IMG/VR virus record: IMGVR_UViG_3300032278_002546
Location: 1-23,498 of that record
Length of the DNA stretch: 23,498 bases
Reading direction: 5' to 3' (one strand)
DNA from: a virus
The notes below the pieces were generated by a model that had not been told where the DNA came from, did not search any database, and saw nothing but the letters and a program-made list of their open reading frames with translations. Positions 3,381 through 13,913 of this stretch are shown here, one piece after another. The first letter of the stretch is position 1, and each line of letters begins with the position of its first letter. The position numbers were made by a program, and so were the translations under genes.

Positions 3381-6300
3381 TTAGAACCAGAGGGTGGTGA
3401 CGGGGGCCGCCCCGGCACCGAACGCCTGCCCGATCTGGGCAATTCGGATGGTGAGGGAGGCACCGGGGGCGAGCGGCGCGCCCCAATCAGCGCTTTGCTG
3501 CGCCGCGGTGTAGACCACGCTGGCGGTCGCAGTCGTCAAGGATCTCTTGACGGTTGCGCCGTCGAGGATGTCGACCCGCCAGGACTCGCTCGCCTCCGAC
3601 ATGGGGATCTCGGCCGCGTTCCAACTGTCGGCCGCGAGCGATCGGTCGCGGCGCAGCCAGCTTATGGTCAGATCGCCGGGGCTGCGCGCCCGCCGCCACG
3701 GCTGCTCGACATGGACCGGCGCGAACGGGCGCAGGCCCGTGCCGCGTGGCGTGAATACCTCTGCCAGATAGCTGTCGTCACTGACCGGACGCGAGGCAGG
3801 CCCGATGCGCCAGTTCCACGGCATGCCCAGATCGGCCTCGATCACCGGCAGCGGGGCCAGCGCTGTGTCCAGCACCACCACCCGCGCCCCGGCCGGCACC
3901 ACCGCCGCCATGTCGGTCTCCGTGCCACGCTGGCCTCGCAGCAGGCGCGAGAGCCGATATCGGCCGGGGGCGATCAGTTCGGCGGTGCCGAATTGCAGGA
4001 TCTCCCAGCCGCCGCCCGGTTGCGCGACAGCGAGCGCGTTCTCGCCAGCGAACAGCCACAGATCGGTAACGCTTTCGAGGGTGCCTGACAGCAGGTCGAG
4101 ATAGACCGAGTTGCCGTAGTCGAAGCGAGAGGTTGGGCCGGAATGGAGATCGGTCACCAGTTCGCCCATGCGCGCACGGGTTCTGAAGGTGGTGAGCAGT
4201 TCGAAAGCGGAGGCCTCGGGGCTGCGGAACACCGCCATCTGGCCGGGCCAGGGGCGAGCATGGGTGGCGATCAGCGGGTGGTGTGGCGCGAGATCCTCGC
4301 GCAGTTGCGGCAGGTTCAGAAGTTCGACCAGCGGCGCACCGAACACGACCGGCCGGGCAAGCGCAGCCGGGCGAGGGCTTCCGGGAGGAAGATCATAGGC
4401 ATCCCGGTCCTGGCGGATGGTCTCGATGCTGCGGGCCTCGGCATCGGAAACCGTGAGGATGCGCATCTCGGCAAGCCGTCCGTCGTGATCCAGCGCGATG
4501 ACATCGCCGGGATCCAGCGCCAGCATCGAGGGCGGCAGGCTGAAGACTCCGGTCTCGCGGCCGATCCATGCCTCCATCAGCGCCCGGCGGCAGCGCCGGT
4601 CGGCTTCCTCGGGCGGCACCGCCATTGGAAAGCTGTCCGAGGATACCCTGCTGGCGCTCACGGCAATGCGCCGCGCCTCGACGGTGATGGCGTCATAATC
4701 CTCGTCGGTGCGCGCGACCTGCCATTTCAACGCCTGCGGCAGTTCGGTCTCCTGGCCGCGGGTTAGTTCCATCACGTCGCTTCGGCCCGCCGCCATGTCG
4801 TCCGGTGCGACGGTCGCGACCGGCGCGCGTCCGCGCATGACGAAGCGAATGCGCCCCTCGCTCTCGACGGCATCGAAGCCGAAATGCCGCGCCAGCATGG
4901 TGATCGAGGTGCGGGGCGATTCCAGCGCCGAGATCACATAGCCATCGACAGCGCCGGTCAGGCCCGAGACATCGATCCACGCCGAGGGCATGCCGGCGCT
5001 CAAGCAGAGGTGGCGCACCAGCGCTGCCAGCGACACGGCGCCCAGCCGGCCAGTCAGCCAGTGCCCCAGCCGCCAGTTGTTGCCATCCGCCCATATGTCC
5101 CCGAGTTGAGGGAAGAACGGATAAGGCCGGGCATCCCAGGTCCATGCCGCGCATTCCGCCACCTCGACCATGCGGCCGGCATATCCGGTCGAGACCGGGT
5201 TGTTTTCGGCGTCACCCCAGAACAGGTAGGTCGCTTCCAGATAGGCCCGCTGGACGGCATCGTCGCGCCAGCCGCGTGAGAACCAGGGCACGAAGGATTC
5301 CGAGGATTTCGGGTCATGAAACACGTTCGGCTGATTGGGGCCGCGATCCACGGCCGGGCAACCGAGTTCGGTAAACCGGATCGGCTTCGACTGCGGCAGC
5401 CATGCGGTCGGGGACGCTGCGGGGATCCCGCCCGGCCGGTTGCGATGCGGGTTCGACCACCAGCCGCGGATGTCCTTGTAGCGGAAGATCCACGGCTCGG
5501 GTGCCACCGCCGGCAAGGTCGCGAAACTCGGGACCGCGCCCGACCATATGCTGAGATTGCTGACCAGCGTTCCCGGCCAGGGGAGTGCTGTCGTGACGGT
5601 GCTGGACCCCGACACCGGGCCGTTGGCAAGGCCATATCCCCCGCCGTTGTTGGCGGCCCATGTGCCGGATACGGACCCGCCGAAGCTTGCCGTGGCCGCG
5701 ACATTCCCGTCGACAGCAAAGCCGATCTCGCCGCTTGCCATGTCGAACCATGCGACCAGATCGGCGGTCCTGCCAGCGAGCGAGGCGGCAGGGGTCGAGG
5801 CCGTCCTGGTCTGTCCGATGGCCGAGAAAATCTCGTGCAGGATCAGCTGACCGCCAGCCAGGCCGAAGAACATGCCGCTGCTCAGGTTGCCGATCTCGAA
5901 AACAATGCCGTCCGCGATCAGGGCCGGGAACTGAACCCGGCAGGATAGGGTGATGCTGGCACTCCGATATGGCACCGTGGTGGTGAAATTGGTGCCGGGA
6001 CTTTGGCTGATGCCGGGTGCTGCAACAGGCATCGCGGTGATGACCTTGCCGCCGGCGCCCGGTGTGATGCTGTCCTCGATCGGTGTGCGGTTCTGCGCGA
6101 TCCGGTCGCCCTCGCTGGCATAGTACCAGTCGAAGCCCTCGCCGCCGGCAATGTTCGATTGCAGATAGGCGCGGTCGTAGATCGACGGCCATGCCAGCGC
6201 ATCGAGATGCTTCCAGCCATCGCGCCAGTCGGAAAGCGGCATGTAATTGTCGATACCGATGAAATCGACATTGTCATCCGCCCAGAGCGGGTCGAGGTGG

Positions 6301-7892
6301 AAGAACACGTCACCCGAGCCATCGCCCGGGTGGTGCCCGTAATACTCCGACCAGTCGGCGGCATAGCTGATCTTCACGCCGGGGCCGAGGATCGAGCGGA
6401 CGGCAGCGGCCAGCGATTGCAACGCGGCAACCGCCGGATAGGTCGATGCCCCGGATCGGATCGTGGTCAGCCCGCGCATTTCGGAACCGATCAGGAAGGC
6501 ATCGACCCCACCCGCCGCCGCGCAGAGATGGGCGTAATGCAGGATCATGCGCCGGAAGCCCCAATCCGCCCCGCCGGTCCAGGTCACGCTGTCGCCGCTG
6601 ACTGCGAAATCCGAGGGCTGGGCATTGCCGAAGAAGGCATCGACCTGCACCGCGGCGGCGGCGGTCTTGTCCACGGTCCCGGCGAAACCGGCCGCAGGTG
6701 AGCAGGTGATCCGCCCGCGCCATGGCAGCACCGACTGGCCGATGGCCGCGGCATAGTCGGACCAGGGATCCGGCAGGGTGTTGCCGGCCGGGACATCCAT
6801 CATCAGGAACGGATAAAAGGTCACCTTGAGCCCGCGCGTTTTCATCTCGCGGATGGCCTGCAGCACCGAGAAATCCGCTGGCGTGCCACCATAGATCGGC
6901 CGCCCCTGATCGTCCTGGCTGACCACCAGCGCATCGCCGCGGCTCACGCCGTTGACGCTCCAGGCAGGCGTGGTGTTCTTCTGCGCCATTTCGACCTTCG
7001 GGCGGATCGTGCAGCTTCCGGCGCGCAGATCGTCGCCGAACCAGGACACCACCAGCGAGGCGCTTTCGACCTTTGGCACCATGGCTTCCAGCCGGTCCAG
7101 CGAAACCACCATGTCGGCGGTTCCGGCCATGGCGTTGACATTCTCGGCCGCGCTGTCGCCGTCCCCGGCCTTGCGCACGATCTGGGTTGCGTAGGACCAT
7201 TCTCCCGACGCCGGGATAACGGTGACCGCGGGCACCAGCCCCTCGGCGGTGTCGGCATCGTCCAGAGGCCGGAACACCTCGAAGGACAGTTGCGGCAGGC
7301 GGTTGCCGAAGCGCGCCAGCGGCAGTTCCTCGAACACCACATAGGCGGTGCCGCGATAGGCAGGCGTGTTCCCCACCCCCATCTTCGCCGTGATGAAGGG
7401 GTCGGGGGCCTGTGCCTCGCTGCCCGGATACCAGCGCCACGTCGCCTCACTGAGGTCCACGATCTCGCCATCAGCCCAGATGCGGCCAATGCCGGTGATC
7501 GGGCCTTCGCAGAGAGCGACAGCGAAACTGGCATAGTAGAGGTACTCGGTCGTGGTGACCTTCTGCCCGCCGCCCTTGCCGCCGCCCTGGCGGGTGGTGT
7601 TAGTTTCCTCGCGGAAGTCGGTCGCCCAGATGATATTGCCGCCGATGCGCATGCGGCCATAGAGGCGCGGGATCACCACGCCCTCGGTCGCCGAGGTTAT
7701 GCGCAGGCTGTCCATGCGCTGGCCCTCGATGCGCTGGCCGGGCAACAGCGACGAGACGATCCAGCTGTCGACCATCGAGCCGATGCCGGAGCCGATCATG
7801 CCGCCGATGGCAGCGCCGGAGAGGCCGAGGATCGTGCCGCCGAAGCCGCCGCCGATGGCGGTGCCGACCGCGCCGAGAAGGATGGTTGCCAT
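3381..7892 (-). CDS. GTA-type tail hub / host specificity protein (TIM-barrel 'megatron') with inserted jelly-roll domain
   Basis: This 1503-residue protein is the homologue of GTA gp15, the large baseplate protein that closes the tail tip. The N-terminus (1-45) is a Gly/Ala-rich hydrophobic segment. Residues about 50-300 are the conserved hub region (VIPRLYGRMRIGGNIIWAT, YASFAVALCEG). Residues about 330-890 contain the GTA TIM-barrel-like domain, with glycosidase-like acids at Glu471 (LIGSEMRGL) and Glu842 (FTELGCPAVD), followed by GPNQPNVFHDPKSSES and further tail-protein beta domains. Between RTPIEDSITP (about 602) and WIFRYKDIRGWW (about 801), where relatives have a short loop, lies an insert of about 190 residues with a lectin-like/LamG-like pattern. 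Whether the barrel cuts host glycans is unknown. The gene starts 3 bases after the NlpC/P60 stop. Confidence 0.92.
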   Translation of the reverse strand: MATILLGAVGTAIGGGFGGTILGLSGAAIGGMIGSGIGSMVDSWIVSSLLPGQRIEGQRMDSLRITSATEGVVIPRLYGRMRIGGNIIWATDFREETNTTRQGGGKGGGQKVTTTEYLYYASFAVALCEGPITGIGRIWADGEIVDLSEATWRWYPGSEAQAPDPFITAKMGVGNTPAYRGTAYVVFEELPLARFGNRLPQLSFEVFRPLDDADTAEGLVPAVTVIPASGEWSYATQIVRKAGDGDSAAENVNAMAGTADMVVSLDRLEAMVPKVESASLVVSWFGDDLRAGSCTIRPKVEMAQKNTTPAWSVNGVSRGDALVVSQDDQGRPIYGGTPADFSVLQAIREMKTRGLKVTFYPFLMMDVPAGNTLPDPWSDYAAAIGQSVLPWRGRITCSPAAGFAGTVDKTAAAAVQVDAFFGNAQPSDFAVSGDSVTWTGGADWGFRRMILHYAHLCAAAGGVDAFLIGSEMRGLTTIRSGASTYPAVAALQSLAAAVRSILGPGVKISYAADWSEYYGHHPGDGSGDVFFHLDPLWADDNVDFIGIDNYMPLSDWRDGWKHLDALAWPSIYDRAYLQSNIAGGEGFDWYYASEGDRIAQNRTPIEDSITPGAGGKVITAMPVAAPGISQSPGTNFTTTVPYRSASITLSCRVQFPALIADGIVFEIGNLSSGMFFGLAGGQLILHEIFSAIGQTRTASTPAASLAGRTADLVAWFDMASGEIGFAVDGNVAATASFGGSVSGTWAANNGGGYGLANGPVSGSSTVTTALPWPGTLVSNLSIWSGAVPSFATLPAVAPEPWIFRYKDIRGWWSNPHRNRPGGIPAASPTAWLPQSKPIRFTELGCPAVDRGPNQPNVFHDPKSSESFVPWFSRGWRDDAVQRAYLEATYLFWGDAENNPVSTGYAGRMVEVAECAAWTWDARPYPFFPQLGDIWADGNNWRLGHWLTGRLGAVSLAALVRHLCLSAGMPSAWIDVSGLTGAVDGYVISALESPRTSITMLARHFGFDAVESEGRIRFVMRGRAPVATVAPDDMAAGRSDVMELTRGQETELPQALKWQVARTDEDYDAITVEARRIAVSASRVSSDSFPMAVPPEEADRRCRRALMEAWIGRETGVFSLPPSMLALDPGDVIALDHDGRLAEMRILTVSDAEARSIETIRQDRDAYDLPPGSPRPAALARPVVFGAPLVELLNLPQLREDLAPHHPLIATHARPWPGQMAVFRSPEASAFELLTTFRTRARMGELVTDLHSGPTSRFDYGNSVYLDLLSGTLESVTDLWLFAGENALAVAQPGGGWEILQFGTAELIAPGRYRLSRLLRGQRGTETDMAAVVPAGARVVVLDTALAPLPVIEADLGMPWNWRIGPASRPVSDDSYLAEVFTPRGTGLRPFAPVHVEQPWRRARSPGDLTISWLRRDRSLAADSWNAAEIPMSEASESWRVDILDGATVKRSLTTATASVVYTAAQQSADWGAPLAPGASLTIRIAQIGQAFGAGAAPVTTLWF

Positions 7893-9280: not shown

Positions 9281-9903
9281 CGGCGGATTTCCACGAGCGG
9301 GATGGAGGTGATCGAGCCGAGCCGCTCGATATCGAGGGTGACGTCGAGCGTGTCGCTGTCGAAGCGGACGGGCACGTCGAATTCGAACCCCGCGCGGACG
9401 GTGACGCCAGCGGCGGGTGCGGTTCCGAATGTAACGACACCGGTCGTCGTATCGACCGACCAGCCGGAAAGCTGCTCGACGCCGCCCAGCGCCAGCCTGA
9501 CGCTGCCTGCGACCGGCCTGGTGATCGAGCGGGTCCAGGACTGCACCCCGGAGGCATACCGCTTCACAAGCTGGAACGCGGTTGCGGTTCCGTTGCCGGT
9601 CCCGAGCAACTGGTCCTGGTGCGTCACCATCGCCGATGGCTTGCAGGATTTATGATCGCCCCAATCCTTGAAGCGGAAGCCGTGCAGACGCCCGTTGCGG
9701 GCCTCGAAGAATTGCACCACGGCGTCGAGATCGTCGGCGCGGCGGATGCCATAGGAGACGTCATAGCGGCGGCGCGAGTTGGCCCAGCTGGCGTTGCGTT
9801 CCTCGTCGCCGGAGGCCAGTTCCACGATCTGGGTGCGCCGTTCCGGGCCGCCGCGCGCGCCGCGGCTGATATTGTCCGGGAACCGGACATCGTGAAAAGT
9901 CAT
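9277..9903 (-). CDS. DUF2460 distal tail protein (GTA gp12-like)
   Basis: This 208-residue protein is a DUF2460 family member (TIGR02217-like). It opens FHDVRFPDNISRGARGGPER, continues with TQIVELASGDEERNASW and RRRYDVSYGIR, and has FFEARNGRLHGFRFKDW, all strong family marks. The last third is beta-rich, ending in a conserved RFDSDTLDVTL segment. In GTA particles the equivalent protein forms the ring that joins the tail tube to the tip. Its ATG overlaps the tape-measure stop by one base (TAATG) and its stop overlaps the DUF2163 start, so the three are translationally coupled. Confidence 0.92.
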   Translation of the reverse strand: MTFHDVRFPDNISRGARGGPERRTQIVELASGDEERNASWANSRRRYDVSYGIRRADDLDAVVQFFEARNGRLHGFRFKDWGDHKSCKPSAMVTHQDQLLGTGNGTATAFQLVKRYASGVQSWTRSITRPVAGSVRLALGGVEQLSGWSVDTTTGVVTFGTAPAAGVTVRAGFEFDVPVRFDSDTLDVTLDIERLGSITSIPLVEIRR

Positions 9904-12302
9904 TACATCCCTCTCCTTCCCATGGCGACGGCCCGCGCGATATCTGCCGAAATCTGTGCTCGCGACTGCCGGAAGCTCTCGGCATCGCGGGCGTTGATGT
10001 TGATGGTGACGCCGCCCCCGTAACCCGCCGCTTCGCGGCGCGAGAGCACCCGCTCGCCCTTCTGCAGGATCGCCGGCACCTCGTCCGAGCGCAGCCCGGC
10101 CCAGCCGCCGGAATGCATCCGGGGCGCATTGGCGAAGGCCATGGCCGAGACCATGCGGGACGGCGCTGCACCGCCGACCATGCCGCCGGCATGGAGGATC
10201 GGCACATTCAGCCCCGGCATGAAGCCCGACAGAATCCCGGCCAGCGGCCCGAGCAGGAACCGGCGCGCGCCCAGCTTCGCCATGTCGGCCAGCATCGAGG
10301 TCACGAGGTCGTGGAAGTTCAGCTTGCCGGTCTTCACGAACTCGCCGACCGCATTCTCGGCGCTCTGGAACGCTCCGACCAGCGCGTTGCCGATATCACC
10401 GCTGATGTCGCGGGCCTTCTGGGCATAGTCGGAGAGCGGGGCGATAACCGCATCCCAGCCCTGTTTCGCCTGTTCCGCGCCGTTTGTAGTGTCTTCGCCG
10501 GCTTTCTTGCCAGCCGCACCGGCCCGGCCCGCAGCGCCACCGGCGCGATCCATGGCACCGGCAACCCGCTCGGCCGCGCCAGCGGCATCGTCCAGAGCGT
10601 TCGCGCCATCCTCGCCCGAGGCGGTGACTGCATCCTTCAGCGCCTGCCAGCTTTCCAGCGGCGCAACTGCCGCCGCGCCCAGCGCCTGTGCAGCGTCGAG
10701 ATGGGCGGAGGCAGCCGCGGCGGCCTGATCGGCAAGATCGCCGAACAGGTCCGGCGGTTCGATATATGTCCTGTCCCAGGCTGCGCTGAACGCCTCGGCG
10801 GCGGCGGAACCTGCATCAGATGCCGATCCCTCGAACGGGTTGTCGATGCGCCCGATGCTGAACGGGTCCAGAAGGCCGATCTGCGCCCCGCCTTCGCCGA
10901 CAGCCCATTCCGGCAGCATGGCGAGGGCGGCGTTGATGCCGGAGATGAAACTGTTGATCCGGGTGACGACGCCGTTCAGCATCGCCTCGACCCCGGCGAT
11001 CAACCCGTTCGCCGCCTTGAACGCCAGATCGCCAATGGCATCCGGCAGCAATGCCCAGATCGCCTTGATCGCCTCAAACCCGCCGTGCCAGACCGCAACA
11101 TATCGGTCCACGGCGGTGACGCCCCCGGTCACGATCAGGTCGAGCACCGTGAACACATAGGCGCGATAGCCATCCCAGGCCGCATTGAGCAGCGCGAACG
11201 ATGCCTGGAAGGCCAGGACGATGCGCTGGCCGACCTCCTTTGCGACATCGCCTAGCAGCTTGAACGCCGTGCCGATGCCGCCGACTGATTTGACCAGCGA
11301 GGAAAACTGGTAGATCAGCTCGCCCGCCGCGACGATCAGCGCGCCGATGCCGGTGCGGATCAGCGCCCCCCGCAGCACGGTCAGCGCCGTGGACAGCGAG
11401 AAGGTCGCGACACGGGCGGCGACAAAAGCCGCCACCCAGCGCCCGGCCATGAAGCCGGCGAAGGCAATCGCGAGCGAGGCGAGGCGTTCGATATTGTCCG
11501 CGACAAGGATCAGCACAGAGGCGACGGTGGAGGAGGCACCCAGAAGCTGATCCCAGCTGCCAACCAGTTGCAGCGCCGCATTGCCGATCAGCGTGAACGC
11601 GTCGCCGATGGTGGCCGGCATGGAGTCCGCTTCCTCGCGCAGCAGCTCCAGATTGCCGACCAGCGCGGTGCGGATCACCTCGCCGGTGATCGCGCCCTGC
11701 GTTCCCATCACCCGCAGGCCGGAAACTGTGGTGCCGAGTTCCGCAGCCAGCAGTTCCGCCACGCGCCCGCCGGTCTGGATCACCGTGTTCAGGTTATCGC
11801 CCGACAGGCTGCCCAGCGCCATCGCCTTCGAGAGCGCATTCTGGACCGAGGCCGCGCGTTCGGCCTTGGCGCCCGAGACCACCATGGCGTTGTTCAGCGC
11901 CTCGGTGAAATCCAGGCTCTCGGCGGTGGACAGGCCCAACTCGCGCAGCGCGGTCGCGTTCGCGAGCCAGGATTCCGTTGTCTGCTCGATACCGGAATAG
12001 GTGCGCCGCGCCATATCGGCGAGCCGGTCCATGACGGCGGCGCCCTTCTCCTGCGACCCGGTCGCCAGATCGACCCGCGAGCGCAGATCGGTCCAGGTAT
12101 CGGCATATTGCGCGACCTGGCGGATGCTGAGCGCGCCAGCCGCGATACCGGCGAGGCGCCGCAACATGACGCCGGCCGTGTCCACCTCACGCGACATGCG
12201 CTTGAAGCTCTCTGCACCCGCATTGCCGACGCCTTCCAGTTCCGCGCGGACCTGGCGTCCGTTCTCAGCGACGAGACGAACGGAAACCTTCTTCTCGGCC
12301 AT
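9903..12302 (-). CDS. Tail tape measure protein (lambda gpH-type)
   Basis: This 799-residue protein sets tail length and is ejected ahead of the DNA. The N-terminal part (about 40-240) shows the tape-measure N-terminal domain: TWTDLRSRVDLATG, LADMARRTYSGIEQTTE and ALSKAMALGSLSGDNLNTVIQTGGRV (split by my reading). A hydrophobic stretch runs from about 255 to 335. An Ala/Gly-rich helical region (about 530-620) is followed by a C-terminal domain resembling lambda gpH (GKLNFHDLVTSMLADMAKLGA, then LHAGGM and VPAILQKGERVLSRRE). It is much longer than the GTA tape measure. At the usual 0.15 nm per residue it would give a tail of about 120 nm (an estimate). The start overlaps the end of the frameshifted chaperone reading frame by 38 bases, as in lambda T/H. 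Confidence 0.92.
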   Translation of the reverse strand: MAEKKVSVRLVAENGRQVRAELEGVGNAGAESFKRMSREVDTAGVMLRRLAGIAAGALSIRQVAQYADTWTDLRSRVDLATGSQEKGAAVMDRLADMARRTYSGIEQTTESWLANATALRELGLSTAESLDFTEALNNAMVVSGAKAERAASVQNALSKAMALGSLSGDNLNTVIQTGGRVAELLAAELGTTVSGLRVMGTQGAITGEVIRTALVGNLELLREEADSMPATIGDAFTLIGNAALQLVGSWDQLLGASSTVASVLILVADNIERLASLAIAFAGFMAGRWVAAFVAARVATFSLSTALTVLRGALIRTGIGALIVAAGELIYQFSSLVKSVGGIGTAFKLLGDVAKEVGQRIVLAFQASFALLNAAWDGYRAYVFTVLDLIVTGGVTAVDRYVAVWHGGFEAIKAIWALLPDAIGDLAFKAANGLIAGVEAMLNGVVTRINSFISGINAALAMLPEWAVGEGGAQIGLLDPFSIGRIDNPFEGSASDAGSAAAEAFSAAWDRTYIEPPDLFGDLADQAAAAASAHLDAAQALGAAAVAPLESWQALKDAVTASGEDGANALDDAAGAAERVAGAMDRAGGAAGRAGAAGKKAGEDTTNGAEQAKQGWDAVIAPLSDYAQKARDISGDIGNALVGAFQSAENAVGEFVKTGKLNFHDLVTSMLADMAKLGARRFLLGPLAGILSGFMPGLNVPILHAGGMVGGAAPSRMVSAMAFANAPRMHSGGWAGLRSDEVPAILQKGERVLSRREAAGYGGGVTININARDAESFRQSRAQISADIARAVAMGRRGM

Positions 12303-12621
12303 CGCCTCTGCCTTCCTCGATCTTCTGGTTGGTCTGGCGGATCATTTCCGCCTCGATCACCGGCAGCAGTTCCACGACCGCCAGCGGTGCAATGCCAAGG
12401 GCGCGGCCCATTTCCAGCGCCGTGCCCATGTCCCAGCCCAGCACCGCGCCGGGGATCGCCCGGACCTGCCCGCTCAGCCTCCCGGCCAGATCCCAGACCT
12501 GCCAGCCCTCTTGCGTTTCGGGACTGTTCAGCCGGGCAGGGCAGTCGGGGCAGCGTCCGGGGCAGGCTGCGCAATATCGGTCGCCCCCGCCGTAGTGCCA
12601 TTCGGCGAGGGCGCGGAGGCG
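12265..12621 (-). CDS. Frameshift extension of the tail-assembly chaperone (lambda gpT-like role, Cys-rich)
   Basis: This 118-codon reading frame has no convincing start of its own. It is entered by a -1 shift at the A-run near 12621-12628, giving a fusion of 115 + 118 = 233 residues. Its sequence is clearly coding. A CAACPGRCPDCP cluster (CxxCxxxCxxC) is followed by NSPETQEGWQVWDLAGRL, GAVLGWDM and ALGIAPLAVVELLPVIEAEM, a combination seen in a conserved Rhodobacterales phage family (probably DUF7697). The C-terminus is highly charged (EEGRGDGREEGFRSSRR). By analogy with lambda gpG/gpGT, the short form and the minor fusion together chaperone the tape measure, and the extension recruits tube subunits. 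It overlaps the tape-measure start by 38 bases. Separate translation from a rare start cannot be excluded. Confidence 0.75.
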   Translation of the reverse strand, partial: RLRALAEWHYGGGDRYCAACPGRCPDCPARLNSPETQEGWQVWDLAGRLSGQVRAIPGAVLGWDMGTALEMGRALGIAPLAVVELLPVIEAEMIRQTNQKIEEGRGDGREEGFRSSRR

Positions 12622-12965
12622 TTTTTTTCCGCATCCAGCACCAGATGCGGACCAAGGGCCTTCTCCTGGAACGCCTCGAACACCGGCCAGATGTTCAAGA
12701 GCGCGTCGATGCCTTCGGGCGTGACCGGCAGGTCGATGCCCTCGGCATCGCCGACGCCCGACCATTCGGTAATCACCATTCTGGCGACGGCCTGCGCCAT
12801 GGCCACGGCCAGCACCTCCTTCGGCGCGTCGATGTCGAGGGTATCGAGGGAGACATCGGAGCGCGCGGCGGCCATGATGGATGTGGTGATCGGGGCGACT
12901 CGGATCATCAGGCCGGGCAGGAGGTCGATCCAGCGCGGCTCGGTGGTGAGGTTCAGACGGATCAT
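12528..12965 (-). CDS. Tail-assembly chaperone, short form (lambda gpG-like role)
   Basis: This 145-residue protein begins MIRLNLTTEPRWIDLLPGLM and continues with an acidic, mostly helical domain (DVSLDTLDIDAPKEVLAVAMA, VITEWSGVGD, VTPEGIDALLNIWPVFEAFQ). It ends in a low-complexity Ala/Pro/Ser tail after residue 115. Size, position between tail tube and tape measure, and the -1 frameshift site at codons 113-115 identify it as the gpG-like chaperone. The low-complexity tail beyond the slip site is what is expected when selection acts mainly on the overlapping -1 frame. It starts 3 bases after the tube stop, with GAGGA inside the tube gene as a possible ribosome-binding site. The function comes from genetic context, as these chaperones share little sequence. 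Confidence 0.85.
   Translation of the reverse strand: MIRLNLTTEPRWIDLLPGLMIRVAPITTSIMAAARSDVSLDTLDIDAPKEVLAVAMAQAVARMVITEWSGVGDAEGIDLPVTPEGIDALLNIWPVFEAFQEKALGPHLVLDAEKNASAPSPNGTTAGATDIAQPAPDAAPTALPG
12621..12627 (-). promoter_or_regulatory. -1 programmed ribosomal frameshift site A_AAA_AAC
   Basis: On the minus strand, codons 113-115 of the chaperone read GAA AAA AAC, giving seven consecutive A bases (12628-12622) and the heptamer A AAA AAC in the correct phase for simultaneous -1 slippage. The -1 frame just upstream is not conserved-looking, whereas downstream it is clearly coding for 118 codons. Confidence 0.8.
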
Positions 12966-12968
12966 GGT

Positions 12969-13913
12969 TCAATATTCCTCGGTGTTGTTGACAAGGGTGA
13001 TGGTTGCCATGCGCGCCGGGCTGGACCCGCGCGCGGCTTGCCAGTCGAAGCTGGCCTGAATGCCCTGCGGCCCGCTGATCTCGACGCGGGGGCGCGGCAG
13101 ATAGACGGCATGTGCGGTGAAGGTCAGGCTTTCGCCGCTGCTCAGGGTGTATGCGAATTCCAATTCGCACGGCCCGCCGGCGATGGCCTGGTTCATCAGC
13201 ACCATATCGGCAAAGCGCAGCTCGATCTGGCCGGTCAGCGCGGCGATGGAGGGATCCGCGCCATCGATCATGCCGTCGGCACGAATGGTCTCGATCCGGT
13301 CGAGATTGTTGGCATAGGTGATCTGGGCCGAGATCACATTGCCCAGTGCTGTGCCATTGCGCGTGATGGCGCCGTTGAAATGCCCGAAGCGGATCAGGTC
13401 CAGATCAGCCAGCGTGCCGGCCTGCGAGGTGCTGACGACGGTCTCGCCCTGCGCCACAAGCTGGGCGCTGGCGGTCAACAGGCCGGAACGCTGCATGGTC
13501 CAGCTGAGCTGGTTGACCATCACGCCCGAATACATGGCGAAGCGCGGCACCTCCGGCATGCCGGTCTCGATCGACATCGACGGCAGGGTCCAGTTGCCGG
13601 AGCGGAACTCATGAGTATAGGGGCCGGGCACGGTGCCTGTGGTGACCGGCGCTCCGAACGCCGCCTTCAGCCAGAAGCCGAACGCCTCGGCGTCGATCGG
13701 CACGGTCAGATCGCCATCCGCGGTGATCGCGTCCTTGACCGGGGCCAGCGGGTCCCGGCCATATCCCAGCAGCTCCGAGCCGAGCAGCGGCTGTTCGGCG
13801 CTCAGCGTCGAGGATGCGAAGGGCAGGCGGGTGAAGCCGCTGACGGGGGCGGTGCCATAAACAGTCTCGAACGCAGCCGCGAGTTGCGACCGCGCACCTT
13901 GGGCGCGTGCCAT
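12969..13913 (-). CDS. Phage tail tube protein
   Basis: This 314-residue protein begins MARAQGARSQLAAAFETVYG, with the family-like continuation GFTRLPFASSTLSAEQPLLGSELLGYGRDP. It is a beta-rich protein with a conserved WLKAAFGAPVTT segment and repeated short strands, fitting a two-domain siphovirus tail tube (Phage_tube family). An SFDWQAARGSSPARMATITLVN stretch sits at the end (positions about 286-307). A strong AAAGGA lies 7 bases before the ATG. It is followed closely by the chaperone and tape measure, the invariant order tube-chaperone-tape measure. It should polymerise into hexameric rings around the tape measure. I am confident of the role, less so of the exact family. Confidence 0.85.
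   Translation of the reverse strand: MARAQGARSQLAAAFETVYGTAPVSGFTRLPFASSTLSAEQPLLGSELLGYGRDPLAPVKDAITADGDLTVPIDAEAFGFWLKAAFGAPVTTGTVPGPYTHEFRSGNWTLPSMSIETGMPEVPRFAMYSGVMVNQLSWTMQRSGLLTASAQLVAQGETVVSTSQAGTLADLDLIRFGHFNGAITRNGTALGNVISAQITYANNLDRIETIRADGMIDGADPSIAALTGQIELRFADMVLMNQAIAGGPCELEFAYTLSSGESLTFTAHAVYLPRPRVEISGPQGIQASFDWQAARGSSPARMATITLVNNTEEY

Follow-up and report, generated by a model that had tools for sequence, protein, structure and literature searches.

A siphovirus tail assembly chaperone gene with a well-supported programmed -1 frameshift into a T-like domain that carries a probable zinc module

The tail gene cluster of virus record IMGVR_UViG_3300032278_002546 raises the question of whether a run of seven A near the end of a chaperone gene joins that gene to a cysteine-rich second reading frame, and what kind of domain this second frame supplies. 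The window, by which we mean the whole 23.5 kb stretch that was analysed (67% GC), comes from a phage (or prophage) of alphaproteobacteria. Our reading, to which we give a probability of about 85%, is that of a siphovirus chaperone gene of the lambda G/GT kind, in which a hairpin-aided -1 slip would append a T domain of the DUF1799/DUF7697 type with a probable zinc module.

The chaperone locus and its slippery site

The tail genes of the window are encoded on the minus strand and comprise a tail terminator (phrog_4204), a tail tube protein, a tail assembly chaperone and a tape measure protein, with a large GTA-like tail protein (3381-7892, matching GTA_TIM) further down. An earlier note on this DNA gave no strand; all features of the chaperone locus lie on the minus strand, as follows.

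12969..13913, minus strand: tail tube protein, directly upstream of the chaperone (Phage_tube_2, E=8e-57)
12528..12965, minus strand: gpG-like tail assembly chaperone, 0 frame, 145 aa (phrog_313, E=1e-21)
12621..12627, minus strand: slippery heptamer A_AAA_AAC, codons GAA AAA AAC, in frame (slippery form in 167 of 168 distinct relatives)
12265..12627, minus strand: T-like extension in the -1 frame, read from the slip for 120 codons and a stop (open frame; AlphaFold mean pLDDT 88)
12582..12613, minus strand: predicted stem-loop of 11 bp, 12613-12603 pairing with 12592-12582, 7 nt past the heptamer (fold of the window)
12541..12573, minus strand: four-cysteine module CAACPGRCPDC, C19, C22, C26 and C29 of the extension (conserved in relatives)
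12295..12447, minus strand: DUF7697/phrog_11212 domain, residues 61-111 of the extension protein P0001 (PF24752, E=1e-22; phrog_11212, E=4e-19)
9903..12302, minus strand: tape measure protein (TMP_3, E=2e-50; ATG at 12302)

The chaperone is thus flanked as expected of a G/GT-type gene, with the Phage_tube_2 gene upstream and the TMP_3 gene downstream. Past the slip, the 0-frame product continues as a disordered Ala/Pro-rich tail, with model confidence falling to a pLDDT of about 42 past residue 110, and comparison of the chaperone with PDB structures returned HK97 2ob9 only at E 1.4. At its C-terminal end, the tape measure matches over 41 residues the corresponding end of NF058675, the model for the tape measure of RcGTA (E=5e-5, a match below that model's cut-off).

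The canonical A_AAA_AAC phase that had been described for the A-run was confirmed at 12627-12621, and AAAAAAC occurs only once in the window with both strands counted. The -1 frame had been described as coding for 118 codons up to and over the tape-measure start; we count 120, which is near enough, ending in a stop at 12267-12265 and overlapping the start of the tape-measure ORF by 38 nt.

Evidence for a change of frame on the ribosome

Relatives of the extension were drawn from IMG/VR, species genomes, phage records and plasmids, giving 168 distinct extensions; relative L034 was excluded from the counts. The heptamer reads AAAAAAC in 162 of these (L080 and L129 included), GGGAAAC in three, AAAAAAA in two and the degraded form AGAAAAC in one (L091). 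A 0-frame ORF matching the chaperone profile precedes the slip in 166 of the 168. The two exceptions, L185 and L193, have just five 0-frame codons before the slip and look like cases of a broken frame upstream. Of the other unusual copies, L010 carries a stop codon in frame shortly before the extension ends, and L151 has lost the extension's N-terminal half.

G/GT-type genes have a conserved slippery heptamer and, behind it, a -1 frame with no start of its own, and this is the arrangement found here. In the extension frame, no relative has an ATG, GTG or TTG between the slip and the first cysteine. The first in-frame start past the slip falls anywhere from codon 23 to codon 84 and is not conserved, so the conserved start codon that would have spoken for independent translation did not appear. 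An in-frame start codon lies 30-45 nt upstream of the slip in L193 and L208. In 14 relatives the extension frame is closed until 0-3 nt before the slip, and 19 have a 0-frame stop one codon past it; these copies leave hardly any route to the extension other than a change of frame. These observations bear directly on the proposal that the extension is a separate gene and the A-run incidental. The records of the phages Nsp-JY21 and Sc-Yong805-1 do annotate a second CDS from an internal ATG, but a gene begun at any of the scattered later starts would omit invariant cysteine, and the heptamer would then have no reason to persist. We give this proposal almost no credence.

A frame change may also be brought about by RNA polymerase slipping on the A-run to yield mixed transcripts, with no part played by the ribosome. 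The run itself, seven consecutive A in the window and eight in cyanobacterial phages, is what recommends this idea, although seven is short for polymerase slippage. The three relatives with GGGAAAC favour the ribosome, because their heptamer breaks the A-run while preserving the rule for tandem ribosomal slippage. The conserved hairpin at the usual 7-nt spacing also stands against polymerase slippage, which we regard as very improbable.

The hairpin was evaluated in the window and across the relatives. In the window, folding of the 53-nt stretch gave -24.2 kcal/mol as the minimum free energy, with a z of only -1.6 against dinucleotide shuffles, a value that is not decisive for a single sequence. 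Across 134 distinct relatives, the 48 nt past the slip are more stable than synonymous recodings that leave the protein unchanged and use pooled codon frequencies (mean z of -2.2 in one run and -2.1 in another). Control windows further downstream and in the chaperone gave z values from -0.6 to 0, and the adjoining overlapping window gave -0.85. The stem positions pair in 84% of cases in 37 diverged sequences, compared with 43-57% when the partner is slid; covariation is modest. A search of Rfam returned no match. The hairpin is likely a stimulator of the slip.

Taken together, the conservation of the heptamer, the absence of an early start, the limits of the two frames, the localised synonymous-site hairpin and a joined CDS already annotated in phage RcOceanus strongly support programmed -1 frameshifting in the chaperone gene, and the proposal of such a frameshift in the earlier note stands on these sequence comparisons. 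The frameshift itself is of an ordinary and known kind, familiar from tailed phages, and has been annotated before.

The extension and its cysteine quartet

The extension had been called unrelated to that of lambda. This is upheld with respect to lambda T, which has no cysteine; it does not hold in the sense of a sequence without known relatives, since the extension belongs to a catalogued family and has a homologue in DUF1799. Membership in DUF7697 (PF24752) is clear, with 80.3 bits against a curated Pfam cut-off of 27. DUF7697 and phrog_11212 cover one and the same region, the second half of the extension, and both are families without an assigned function. We infer that these profiles start mid-extension because gene callers chose internal start codons where the frameshift was not modelled, and gene calling of this kind is seen in Nostoc and Synechococcus phage records. 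P0001 is absent from the matches of DUF1799 (PF08809) in Pfam up to E=1. In profile comparison (hhalign), the extension matched the DUF1799 extensions with a probability of 96% and E 2e-9, while control comparisons with reversed profiles and with the chaperone profile gave probabilities of 0.1-0.2%. Judged by these profiles, the extension is homologous to DUF1799, related to that family and not a member of it. Both models match four distant relatives in genome G013, with a weak score under the cut-off in the case of DUF1799. This genome, together with G001 and G178, is among those with three to five DUF7697 matches apiece on separate contigs, which probably represent several prophages. A contig placed in a Gammaproteobacteria MAG (L049) holds a copy of Paracoccus type that shares 86% identity with the extension of the window; the placement is possibly a binning error.

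The AlphaFold model of the extension consists of a helix (residues 2-20), a cysteine loop and the conserved domain. Several of the nearest predicted viral folds carry the label 'tape measure chaperone' or 'tail assembly chaperone'; no E-value is below 0.001. Comparison of the extension with the PDB by Foldseek and VIA-align gave no significant match, and searching the sequences of solved structures with a profile of the extension returned RING proteins only, at a non-significant E of about 0.6.

The CxxCxxxCxxC cluster that had been described is present as CAACPGRCPDC, positioned between the slip helix and the DUF7697 domain. None of C19, C22, C26 and C29 varies among 31 aligned extensions with identity down to 36%. 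At least four cysteines occur in 167 of the 168 distinct relatives, and the remaining one has an ambiguous residue at this place. The pattern CxxC-x(3, 9 or 15)-CxxC is found in 159 relatives; distant groups keep four cysteines at other spacings, for example C-x2-C-x6-C-x11-C, and two human faecal phage records likewise keep four at another spacing. Retention of four cysteines across the family is what a C4 knuckle calls for. The earlier note regarded a metal centre in a gpGT-type extension as unusual, and this can be said with respect to the T domains compared, namely lambda T and 20 DUF1799-type extensions, among which the cysteine count varies from 0 to 4 and a conserved quartet is absent.

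The conservation pattern makes the cluster a likely metal site, most likely a structural one holding a single zinc ion. Its cysteines could instead hold an iron-sulphur cluster or serve as a redox switch, with the frameshift unchanged, and CxxCxxxCxxC does resemble some cluster motifs. The loop between the two pairs, however, ranges in length from 3 to 15 residues, and the spacing differs in distant relatives that still retain four cysteines. Variable spacing of this sort is usual for structural zinc sites, so that zinc fits better, and we judge the iron-sulphur or redox version unlikely. KS10 was considered as a case of a tail chaperone with a zinc finger and was rejected, the zinc finger there being another gene.

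In a literature search that reached few subscription journals, no paper was found on the C4 module, the hairpin or the link between DUF7697, phrog_11212 and DUF1799, and DUF7697 gave no literature match. These three are what the present analysis adds. DUF7697 and phrog_11212 gain a role, since they represent the C-terminal half, in truncated form, of a protein made by frameshifting, and they are joined to DUF1799. For annotation, the cysteine-bearing N-terminal half can be found only when the frameshift is modelled. The probable metal site in the T domain is a point open to work with purified protein. More tentatively, and with somewhat less than even confidence, we suggest a widespread siphovirus chaperone lineage, spread over alphaproteobacterial prophages, cyanobacterial phages and some gut phages, whose T domain would be made only by frameshifting and stabilised by zinc; tail assembly would then depend on metal, or on the redox state of the cysteines, at the recruitment of the tube protein.

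Proposed function and comparison with known systems

Work on lambda assigns tape-measure binding to gpG and to the G part of gpGT, and assigns to T both the binding of the tube protein and the start of tube polymerisation; the ratio of gpG to gpGT matters (PMC5009743, PMC4493119). The conserved -1 frameshift of tail-chaperone genes goes back to Xu, Hendrix and Duda (2004), as cited in these papers. Similar roles are expected here because of the synteny and family of the genes. A minority of ribosomes would move back by one base at A_AAA_AAC, aided by the hairpin 7 nt downstream, and so produce a gpGT-like fusion. The gpG-like part would hold the tape measure and, by analogy with lambda, the T-like extension would recruit the tail tube protein, its expected partner. 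The four-cysteine module would most likely bind one zinc ion and stiffen its loop, bracing the connection between the last helix of the chaperone, prolonged by the shift, and the tube-binding domain.

The locus shares with lambda G/GT the order tube, chaperone, tape measure, the heptamer near the chaperone end and a -1 extension reaching the tape-measure start. It differs in the extension, which bears no resemblance by eye to the cysteine-free lambda T. An annotated parallel is RcOceanus, a phage of Rhodobacter capsulatus (MW677520), with a homologous chaperone and extension and the same cysteine quartet; its record labels the joined CDS 'tail assembly chaperone'. RcOceanus differs in its slip site, GGGAAAC, and in an extension about 52% identical to that of the window. 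At the match, ten further Rhodobacter phages have tail assembly chaperone genes in pairs, and the frameshift in this chaperone family is already known. In two cyanobacterial phages the gene in the tail-tube position is of equal length: in Synechococcus phage Sc-Yong805-1 (L246, 225-1163) its annotation, probably a wrong one, is that of a XerD-type tyrosine recombinase, and in Nostoc phage Nsp-JY21 its function is not given. The DUF1799 extensions have a homologous C-terminal domain and the same slip sites, AAAAAAC or GGGAAAC standing directly before all 20 that were cut out, and are distinguished from the window's extension by their want of a conserved quartet. DUF7697 and phrog_11212 correspond to the C-terminal half of the window's extension, whereas their profiles are without the cysteine-bearing N-terminal half, which is readable only through the frameshift.
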